From Clostridia bacterium (GTDB lineage Bacteria > Bacillota > Clostridia > Oscillospirales > Acutalibacteraceae): DNA of 64,000 nt. The notes beneath the pieces were generated by a model, which ran no database searches, had not been told where the DNA came from, and saw only the letters and a program-made list of their open reading frames with translations. Below, in pieces: positions 57,599-59,727 of this stretch (its first letter is position 1; each line of letters begins with the position of its first letter). The stretch covers positions 1 to 64,000 of the forward strand of contig JAFUIO010000025.1 in assembly GCA_017468425.1 (NCBI GenBank). Reading direction: 5' to 3'. The translations under genes were made by a program, and so were the position numbers.

Positions 57599-57628
57599 AA
57601 TATCCAAAGTTTATAACATTGATTTACA

Positions 57629-57684
57629 GGCTCCCTTGTGTAAAGGGAGCTGGCAAAATCTGTGATTTTGACTGAGGGATTGTC
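57629..57684 (+). repeat. Left inverted arm of the DUF559 element
   Basis: The hairpin GGCTCCCTT...AAGGGAGC (57629-57650) is followed by CAAAATC/GATTTTG and GACTGAGGGATTGTC (57670-57684), the last 15 bases an exact inverse of 58106-58120. Confidence 0.85.
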
Positions 57685-57747
57685 GGAAAGAAAAGGTGAT
57701 TCCTTACGGACAGAAAACATAATAAAGAAATAGTTCCTGTTGCGAAA

Positions 57748-58071
57748 ATGCTTCGGAAAAATATGACAAAAGAAGAGAAACATCTATGGTATGATTTTCT
57801 TAAAACATATCCTGTTCGTTTTTTTAGGCAAAAGGTTCTTGGGAAATATGTTGCAGATTTTTATTCAGCTTCCGCAAAGTCGGTAATAGAACTTGACGGT
57901 TCACAGCATTATGAGGCTGGTGGTATGGAAAAAGATGCAGAACGAACCAAATATCTTGAAGAATACGGCTTGAAAATAATAAGAATCCCAAACGATGAAA
58001 TTAATCAGAATTTCAGAGGAGTTTGTGAGTATATTGACAAAATTGTTAAACAATCCTTGAATCAGCCGTGA
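57748..58071 (+). CDS. DUF559 (Vsr-like fold) endonuclease-domain protein
   Basis: The protein (107 residues from this ATG) has the DUF559 signature: LRKNMTKEEKHLWYDFLKTY, PVRFFRQKVLGKYVADFY (with the acidic residue of the active site), the VIELDGSQHYE motif and a C-terminal GLKIIRIPNDEI. DUF559 is a PD-(D/E)XK/Vsr-like nuclease fold that is common in small mobile units. The family usually starts further upstream; in frame at 57706 there is ACG in the right place seven bases after AAAAGGTG, so the original start has probably changed from ATG to ACG. Translation may begin weakly there or at ATG 57748. Confidence 0.85.
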   Translation: MLRKNMTKEEKHLWYDFLKTYPVRFFRQKVLGKYVADFYSASAKSVIELDGSQHYEAGGMEKDAERTKYLEEYGLKIIRIPNDEINQNFRGVCEYIDKIVKQSLNQP

Positions 58072-58105
58072 TGAGAAAATTTTAAAAATATTATGATGTG
58101 AGGGT

Positions 58106-58160
58106 GACAATCCCTCAGTCATTTTTAACAAAATGACAGCTCCCTTTACACAAGGGAGCC
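58106..58160 (-). repeat. Right inverted arm of the DUF559 element
   Basis: Reads GACAATCCCTCAGTC then a TTTTTAACAAAA loop region and GCTCCCTTT, ACAC, AAGGGAGCC, followed by GTTTTT. On the plus strand this works as a terminator for the DUF559 gene. Confidence 0.85.
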
Positions 58161-58164
58161 GTTT

Positions 58165-58476
58165 TTATTTTGAAATCAGGTCGATTATAATTGATACAGC
58201 TTTTTTCTTCTCTTCTGACAGACACTGTATTTTGTCTGATAATTGTGTGCTTGAATTTGTTTCTGAACTGTTGCCGAACATGAGGGTTTGCTCGTCAGTT
58301 TCCAGAATTTCTGAAATTTTTTCTATCAGGGTCAGACTTGGTCTGTATGAACCTGTTTCAATTCTGCTTAAGTGCTCTGTTGAAATATCAAGTGCTTCAG
58401 CAAGCTTCTCCTGGGTTAAATTCTGTTCTTTTCGTATTCTTTTTATTCTTTGTCCGATTGCCTTGAAATTTATCAT
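58165..58476 (-). CDS. XRE-family regulator (103 aa)
   Basis: The N-terminal 60 residues are a Cro/CI-type helix-turn-helix (LTQEKLAEALDISTEHLSRI followed by ETGSYRPSLTLIEKISEIL). The short C-terminal tail (about 40 residues) is helical and acidic-basic mixed. GAGG lies before the ATG. The gene is divergent from the frameshifted zinc-ribbon gene and its stop is five bases from the end of the DUF559 element. Divergent promoters with repeated AATATTATTA-like sequences fit autoregulation plus control of the neighbouring membrane genes. Confidence 0.85.
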   Translation of the reverse strand: MINFKAIGQRIKRIRKEQNLTQEKLAEALDISTEHLSRIETGSYRPSLTLIEKISEILETDEQTLMFGNSSETNSSTQLSDKIQCLSEEKKKAVSIIIDLISK

Positions 58477-58508
58477 ATGCTAAACCTCACAACAATATTA
58501 TTTGATAT

Positions 58509-58537
58509 ATTTTATCAATATTATTATGATGTGTTAA
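58509..58537 (-). promoter_or_regulatory. Promoter for the XRE regulator gene
   Basis: Minus-strand TTAACA (58537-58532), 17-base spacer, TAAAAT (58514-58509). Confidence 0.75.
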
Positions 58538-58555
58538 TGATTTTTAATATTATTA

Positions 58556-58584
58556 TTGACAAATAAAATCAATAATGATATAAT
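58556..58584 (+). promoter_or_regulatory. Promoter for the zinc-ribbon membrane gene pair
   Basis: TTGACA (58556-58561), 17-base spacer, TATAAT (58579-58584): full consensus, divergent from the XRE promoter. Confidence 0.92.
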
Positions 58585-58628
58585 TTAAAAAAATTGTTAG
58601 TTTAGCGCAATATAAGGAGTGTGTTAAT

Positions 58629-59173
58629 ATGTTTTGTAAAAATGTGGCATGGAAATTGACGAAAATACTAAATTTTGTTCTAAATGTGGCGCAACGCTTA
58701 ATCAGTGCGACCAACAGCATAATAATCCGATGCCACCACCGCCACAGATTAATATAGAATACAATTCATACGATTCAAGCGGAAAGGGGAAATCGAAGGG
58801 ATTCGGACAAACAATTTTAAATTTGTTTGCATCTAAAGTTGGCAAAATTGCGTTGACAATTATCATTGGCATGATTGTGTGGGGCGTAATGATTAGTTTT
58901 ATGATAAATGAAAATGTTCCTTTCCTGTTTGTTACTATTGCTGTGTGTGCTTTCTTCGGGTGGAAAAGTTTGAATAAAATTACTTCTAAAATATTTTTGT
59001 GGATGAATTTTGTTGGTTGGATTATTTATTTTGTGGTAAAGGGTTTTCTTTCAGTACTTGTTGGTTGGGTTATTGCTCCGTTTAAAATAGCAAGCATGAT
59101 TTCTGAATATGCAATTAAGGTTCTTGGAGCTTCTGCAAAATATATACAGAACAGTCATGATTCAAAAAAATGA
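58629..59173 (+). pseudogene. Zinc-ribbon membrane protein gene with an early frameshift
   Basis: The ribosome binding site AAGGAG (58614-58619) is nine bases from ATG 58629, which reads MFCKN and then loses frame; the frame starting at ATG 58649 reads MEIDENTKFCSKCGATLNQ. Adding one T after 58643 would give MFCKNCGMEIDENTKFCSKC, the canonical double-CxxC zinc ribbon. So one base has been lost. The rest is intact: a Pro/Gln linker, then two to three membrane helices (TIIIGMIVWGVMISFMI; VTIAVCAFFGW; FVGWIIYFVVKGFLSVL). Without a fix, translation could restart at ATG 58649 and give a protein with only half a zinc ribbon. A sequencing error is possible. Confidence 0.75.
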
Positions 59174-59208
59174 TATATATTTCAGTTAAATAGAATTATG
59201 AGGTATAT

Positions 59209-59727
59209 ATGATGGTTCCTGTTTATTTCTTTACGGGATTTGATGTGTTAATAGTACTGGCTATGTTTGCTATTCCGATATTAGGAATGGGAATGGGTTT
59301 GCTTGAAGCTGCGAAATGGCTAATGGGAAATTCCGAAAGAGTCGTTGCTATAGTTTTGATGATTTTTTTGTTAATAGCGGTACTGACATATCTTTTTTCC
59401 AAAAATATTCGATATGCAGTATCTGTGTTTGTAGGAATGCCGTTTTATCTTGTTAATCCGGTGATGACTTTTGCCAGTACATGGTTATCAGCCGGGGGTG
59501 AGGACGGCAATCTCTTTGAGATAATCTGTTCTTTGTTTTGTGCAGTATTGATGGGGCTTATATCCTTTGCTGTATCAACATTGTTTTTGATTGTGTCAAT
59601 GAATGGCTTCACCGGACTATTTGATTCAGATGAGGATGATACGCGTAGACCAATAACTTTTGTAATCCAAAACATAATAATTTTTATAGGACAAATGATT
59701 GCGACCGGGTTTTGGAGTTCTTTATAA
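59209..59727 (+). CDS. Four-helix membrane protein (172 aa)
   Basis: The protein has about five hydrophobic segments (VLIVLAMFAIPILGMGMGLL; VVAIVLMIFLLIAVLTYLF; YAVSVFVGMPFYLVNPVMTF; IICSLFCAVLMGLISFAVSTLFLIV split; FVIQNIIIFIGQMIATGFW) and short loops, one of them acidic (DSDEDDTRR). Family not recognised. It lies 35 bases after the frameshifted zinc-ribbon gene in the same direction, with GAGG before its ATG, so both form the operon opposite the XRE regulator. The two membrane proteins may work together. A terminator follows. Confidence 0.65.
   Translation: MMVPVYFFTGFDVLIVLAMFAIPILGMGMGLLEAAKWLMGNSERVVAIVLMIFLLIAVLTYLFSKNIRYAVSVFVGMPFYLVNPVMTFASTWLSAGGEDGNLFEIICSLFCAVLMGLISFAVSTLFLIVSMNGFTGLFDSDEDDTRRPITFVIQNIIIFIGQMIATGFWSSL

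Follow-up and report, generated by a model that had tools for sequence, protein, structure and literature searches.

Units in which a gene for a DUF559 nuclease is held between inverted palindromic arms form a mobile family, one member of which occupies positions 57629-58160 of the window (the whole 64,000-nucleotide stretch of DNA analysed here). The family is mobile because it occurs in multiple copies beside unrelated neighbours, because one site is filled in some genomes and empty in their sisters, because gene-less derivatives exist, and because arms and protein co-diverge. We judge it probable that these units are very small mobile elements with nothing more than a DUF559 nuclease gene and a double-hairpin arm on either side of it, propagating by the cycle proposed below; if so, they represent a new type of element, moving by a Vsr-like nuclease in place of a transposase, and DUF559/YcjD, a domain of unknown function, gains a testable role. 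The family is widespread and so far undescribed, in gut bacteria and in other phyla: a literature search that left subscription journals largely uncovered found neither a published link of DUF559 to repeats nor a description of how such a unit moves, in agreement with the original prediction on the latter point.

The window unit comprises the following features:

57629 to 57684, forward strand: left arm (hairpin 1 at 57629-57650, hairpin 2 at about 57651-57672, tail TGAGGGATTGTC)
57706 to 58071, forward strand: DUF559 (PF04480) nuclease gene (ACG at 57706, first ATG at 57748)
58106 to 58160, reverse strand: right arm, the left arm inverted (tail, then hairpin 2 at about 58118-58137 and hairpin 1 at 58138-58160)

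The inverted arm pair encloses the gene and matches as inverted copies at 82% over its entire 55-56 nt, with outer parts (57629-57655 and 58134-58160; 27 nt) that are 96% complementary and inner parts (57669-57684 and 58106-58121; 16 nt) that are 100% complementary. Folding as single-stranded DNA gives two hairpins in each arm (z -6.9 to -8.8; equalled by 0 of 200 shuffles), which bears out the original prediction of a nuclease gene enclosed by hairpin arms; the predicted arm length of 55 bases holds for the right arm, and the left arm measures 56 nt. A predicted second role of the right arm as a terminator is consistent with a pattern match, by which the hairpin and the T-run after it score as terminator-like. 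Rfam returned only sub-threshold chance matches. Open from 57700, the reading frame counts 107 codons from the ATG at 57748 to a stop at 58071; its product matches the PF04480 DUF559 profile (E 1.3e-26, positions 10-107 of 109), with just two weakly matched nuclease families beyond it in Pfam, and keeps the catalytic-type residues E10, D37, E48, D50, H54 and D63 intact (numbered from the ATG at 57748). DUF559 is the sole gene between the arms, and the self-contained unit without a transposase foreseen for this locus is found within a family that is mobile.

A search with the window protein returned 80 loci in Oscillospiraceae and other Clostridia, nearly all with arms tight around the gene, and the unit is present more than once in some genomes (for example JAFUQQ, JAFVTV, SVSS, JAFXHA and SVQX), among unrelated neighbour genes. 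An inverted arm pair, defined by an inverted-repeat score of at least 30, is present at 139 of 174 scorable related DUF559 loci, a recurrence elsewhere that the original prediction had proposed to look for. The controls gave none, among 30 luxS loci and 189 places drawn at random from the same loci (0 of 219 control places in all). Among DUF559 loci sampled by Pfam only, the pair is present at 66 of 96, a strong arm pair being missing at about one-third. The arms belong with the DUF559 gene, beyond chance repeats. An ordinarily inherited gene amid coincidental intergenic repeats, with arms that are merely terminators, is a scarcely credible explanation: the terminator-like right arm would suit it, as would a window copy without a second in its genome or a resolved empty site, yet control loci never carry such arms, the arms are family-specific, and filled and empty sites exist. 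Ordinary inheritance was rejected at the level of the family on the filled and empty sites of the L136 locus, and is possible for the window copy taken alone.

L136 is the one locus where empty sites in sister genomes prove an insertion: it is filled in G039 and its sister G491 and empty in the sisters G492 and G086; a 39-bp target duplication (TCGGCGCGAGCTTCGCGCTCACCGCGCCGAAGATAAAGA) accompanies the filled site and stands as a single copy in the empty sites, supplying the filled-to-empty comparison suggested with the original prediction. The insert is 473 bp long, with 11 and 8 filler bases outside the arms. At a second locus (L133), a 56-bp direct duplication lies a few bases from the arms; other target duplications are shorter (20-30 bp), and most elements show none. 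Flanking direct repeats scoring at least 12 accompany 9 of 135 elements, against 0.3% of shuffled flank pairs, and those at L179, L180, L210 and L213 may be conserved flanks instead, leaving fewer clear cases. Across about 20 sites of G039 compared with about 1 Mb of the sister G491, one DUF559 unit differs in presence (G039:C10). This place (L368, about 300-1330) is an arm array with a repeated flank, TCGCAGCAGCGCGGCCTT, and a DUF559 gene inside, the gene being absent from the matching G491 array (flank about 95% identical); it was set aside as a clean insertion, since the surrounding arm array blurs the element ends.

At least eight sequence families of arms were distinguished, namely CTCCCTTGTGTAAAGGGAG, CTCCCTTGCCTAAAGGGAG, CTTCCCCTTGAGGGGAAG, CTCCCCTGTGTAAGGGGAG, CTCTCCC-type, CTCCCTC-type, CCCTCTTT-type and TCCCCTCC-type. 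A common plan, resting on arms extracted from all families except the last two, runs from hairpin 1 through TG, hairpin 2 and C(G/T)GA to a G-rich tail (consensus: hairpin 1-TG(G/T)C-hairpin 2-C(G/T)GA...), and hairpin 2 has a stem of at least 5 pairs in 88 of 116 distinct sequences, compared with 10% of shuffles. A hairpin 1 ending in GC is followed by a CTG tail in 47 of 47 distinct arms, and one ending in GG by a CGG or TGG tail in 82 of 82. The left arm is of the GG-ending type in most elements, with GGAGGG directly before ATG, and TGTAATG stands directly after the tail in 65 arms; judging by such motifs, the left arm appears to double as a ribosome-binding site in most elements outside the window genus. 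The window and its genus sisters carry the GC-ending type on both sides, the window left arm being of the R type (GC at the end of hairpin 1, tail CTGAGGG). Pairing between tail and hairpin was considered as a cause of the left and right arm types and discarded; it fails in the CTTCCCC family and fits some others.

Arm family tracks the clade of the DUF559 protein, not the host. On a tree of 157 DUF559 proteins it changes 26 times (shuffled assignments: 70.4, with none of 200 that low), a clustering inflated by near-copies on a short tree with many unresolved forks; more telling are single hosts (G096, G043, G340, G470 and G166) with several DUF559s, each bearing the arm family of its own clade. 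Strong purifying selection on the gene is evident from its dN/dS ratios (group 1, 0.057; group 2, 0.093), the catalytic-type residues listed above are conserved at 99-100% among copies, and Q28 and G51 are also nearly invariant. An AlphaFold2 model (pLDDT 83) matches best in Foldseek to the homing endonuclease I-Bth0305I (3r3p; E 2.3e-5, TM 0.71-0.78), then to the Neisseria protein NGO0050 (3hrl, also matched by sequence at E 6e-10), with weaker matches to PvuRts1I, an R2 retrotransposon protein and Vsr (1vsr, E 0.12). The model and the conserved residues give the protein, a predicted nuclease, the Vsr/EDxHD fold.

The form of the arms is what recommends a single-strand route of the RAYT/IS200 kind, by which DUF559 would cut hairpins extruded on the lagging strand and the element would move as single-stranded DNA: the double hairpins are conserved, with stems varied in sequence yet paired (88 of 116), left and right arm types are distinct, and the organisation is the same as that of REPIN/RAYT. 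IS200/IS605 insertion makes no target duplication. None is expected on this route, yet duplications of 39 and 56 bp are seen, and structure matches give the DUF559 protein no HUH fold, with no HUH structure among the top 50 matches listed for the model; we regard the route as improbable, and identity with RAYT or IS200-IS605 was itself rejected, since neither Pfam nor fold matches reveal an HUH tyrosine transposase. Homing, in which the nuclease would cut an element-less allele and gene conversion would copy the element in, draws on the same structural comparison, the closest solved fold being that of a homing endonuclease; it is disfavoured, and very improbable, for it requires homologous flanks and yields no duplication, whereas copies stand at unrelated sites with duplications.

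Derivatives of the units lacking the gene occur as doublets, solo arms and single-hairpin scars. In the sister species G001, DUF559 is not detected and about ten gene-less doublets (left arm, short spacer, right arm) are present. Hairpin 1, with at most one mismatch, occurs in 24 of 98 relatives' genomes, where the reversed pattern has a single chance match, and a strong DUF559 match is found in 14 of 17 genomes with at least two hairpin 1 copies compared with 11 of 81 others (p 6e-8); when copies on DUF559 elements are excluded, the association holds in 12 of 15 (p 2e-6). About 11 hairpin copies each are found in G001 and G020 with DUF559 not detected (genome completeness 79% and 89%, respectively), possibly reflecting another mover or a lost nuclease. 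Single-hairpin scars account for 9 of 30 further loci sampled by hairpin-1 sequence, and one such scar (L337, around 1500) lies within a longer perfect palindrome, ACAACCTCCGG...CCGGAGGTTGT.

The DUF559 units of group 1 (30 loci) are contained in larger cassettes that have inverted ends of their own, and such carriage could account for the spread of these copies; the same spot near the right end of the cassette is occupied by the full unit in some loci and by a doublet or a single-hairpin scar in others, and elsewhere lacks an element and has another terminator. These larger cassettes (L018 2199-3502; L011 2174-3500; also L008, L010, L022, L025, L031 and L064) have inverted ends ACTCTAAAGGACAGTTTT and carry a variable cargo gene with a DUF559 unit or doublet; at L018 and L011 the cassette sits within the stem-loop of a rho-independent terminator (for example AATCCACCGA...TCGGTGGATTTTT).

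Such arrangements bear on the main rival, an unlikely one in our estimation, by which an unknown trans-acting transposase recognises the arms and DUF559 is a MITE-like passenger, cargo kept for defence or repair, for example. Gene-less doublets, the many arms of G001 and G020 with no DUF559 detected, and group-1 units within cassettes with separate inverted ends all accord with it, and inverted ends, gene-less derivatives and target duplication are shared with DDE MITEs. Against it, one and the same gene is found inside at least eight arm families, with arm family tracking the clade of that gene, and all other genes near arms vary; to our knowledge, moreover, known DDE transposases do not typically leave target duplications of 39 or 56 bp. 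Inside the arm pairs, DUF559 is the only gene found. From DDE MITEs the units differ in ends that are double hairpins, in duplications that are long and variable as opposed to fixed at 2-14 bp, and in that no DDE transposase was recognised.

In preference to a passenger role, we infer that DUF559 is the mover of the elements, binding the arms and performing the nicking, by a strand-level route that would proceed as follows; it might also nick its own hairpin ends, as the original prediction suggested. The nuclease would be expressed from the element, the left-arm tail CGGAGGGATTGTAATG serving as ribosome-binding site in most elements outside the window genus, and the right arm with its T-run would terminate the transcript. 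It would then recognise the hairpin arms of its own family, both on full elements and, in trans, on gene-less doublets, and nick target DNA in a staggered fashion, often just downstream of genes, the element being joined in during repair of the nicked target. Filling in of widely spaced nicks would duplicate about 20-56 bp of the target and leave a few bases of filler, and the long, variable duplications and filler observed would suit such nicks followed by repair; the wide spacing is made plausible by I-Bth0305I, for which dimerisation on a target of nearly 60 bp has been reported (PMC3943268). Doublets, solos and single-hairpin scars would arise by deletions running from one hairpin-1 palindrome to the other.

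Among described systems, REPIN/RAYT (PMC3116915, PMC3733652) offers similarities in its short palindromic repeats, with inverted doublets as non-autonomous units, and in its single nuclease gene with repeats of the matching class on either side, which co-diverge with the enzyme; multi-copy inverted doublets tied to a nuclease gene, characteristic of REPINs, are likewise found here (G001 and group-1 cassettes; p 6e-8). The DUF559 enzyme is, by contrast, of the Vsr/EDxHD type and unrelated to the HUH tyrosine transposase, the arms inspected carry no GTAG or CGTC tag of the REPIN kind, and full DUF559 units occur in several copies per genome and with long target duplications, whereas RAYTs are reported as single copy (PMC3116915, PMC3733652). 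With EDxHD homing endonucleases (I-Bth0305I, PDB 3r3p), the units share the best structural match of the catalytic domain and the character of a small selfish nuclease gene, but they differ in having no intron or intein, in a protein of 107-122 aa with no extra DNA-binding domain, and in occupying unrelated sites with target duplication instead of a fixed homing site. DUF559 (YcjD) has been placed near Vsr in the PD-(D/E)XK superfamily (PMC1189080); E. coli YcjD and the protein of PDB 3hrl (NGO0050) belong to the same protein family as the window nuclease, and the papers retrieved contain no report of mobility for either.

Beyond Clostridia, a sample of seven loci, to be read as a lead and not a census, places DUF559 between inverted palindromic arms on plasmids of Deinococcus proteolyticus (score 97), Pseudanabaena (108) and Sphingomonas (46) and on one faecal phage contig (45), and the Pseudanabaena arm palindrome occurs 11 times on its 215-kb plasmid. 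E. coli and Neisseria DUF559 loci gave no convincing arm pair: E. coli ycjD, annotated as DUF559, has a single chromosomal location (sapF on one side, fabI on the other), an inverted-repeat score of 18 and no matched arms. At that locus (L349, 2369-2722), a 41-bp palindromic repeat lies between ycjD and fabI and seems to explain why a few further places match in each E. coli genome; ycjD was also tried as a filled and empty comparison and rejected, the efflux genes after sapF in CFT073 and O157 Xuzhou21 representing a replacement.

Palindromic repeats are common in bacteria. Some of their families are reported to be without a dedicated transposase (PMC3733652), and a link of one nuclease family to many repeat families in different phyla would point to a likely source of such repeats. 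Whether DUF559 constitutes a new class of mobilising enzyme is a proposition on which we are evenly divided: hairpin-ended elements, and the derivatives of them that lack the gene, would be moved by a Vsr-like nuclease alone, with target duplications both long and variable, and in this nuclease many families of palindromic repeats in Bacillota, Cyanobacteria, Deinococcota and Proteobacteria would find their missing mover.

The window copy itself is probably ageing and may be decaying, because ACG (57706) stands as its start codon where the aligned codon of sister copies is ATG (G006) or GTG (G004); starting at the first usable ATG (57748) would lose 14 conserved residues, and the copy may be poorly translated from its seemingly damaged start codon. 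The unit does not lie beside luxS in relatives, and sister members of the window genus carry it at another site, so that relatives do not show the shared position between the same genes which the original prediction named as its refutation. No target duplication is apparent at the window copy, and no clean empty site for it was found among sister species: G002, G003 and G006 were rejected as empty sites, for all are without a 2.1-kb block after luxS (57601-59723) that includes the DUF559 unit and more, so that the element cannot be delimited alone. The site common to G004 and G006 was likewise discarded as an insertion test, its sister sites being too diverged for the limits of the insert. Besides the DUF559 unit, the 2.1-kb block between luxS and the next gene contains an HTH gene (58165-58476) and genes for two small membrane proteins. 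In the window genome, the window copy is the one DUF559, accompanied by one doublet-like remnant at C7 (L283) and by solo arms of a related family. A solo-arm repeat family of this genome (L278-L282, on C41, C26, C9, C38 and C40) has AAATTATAATTT on either side, which may be a fixed target or a duplication.
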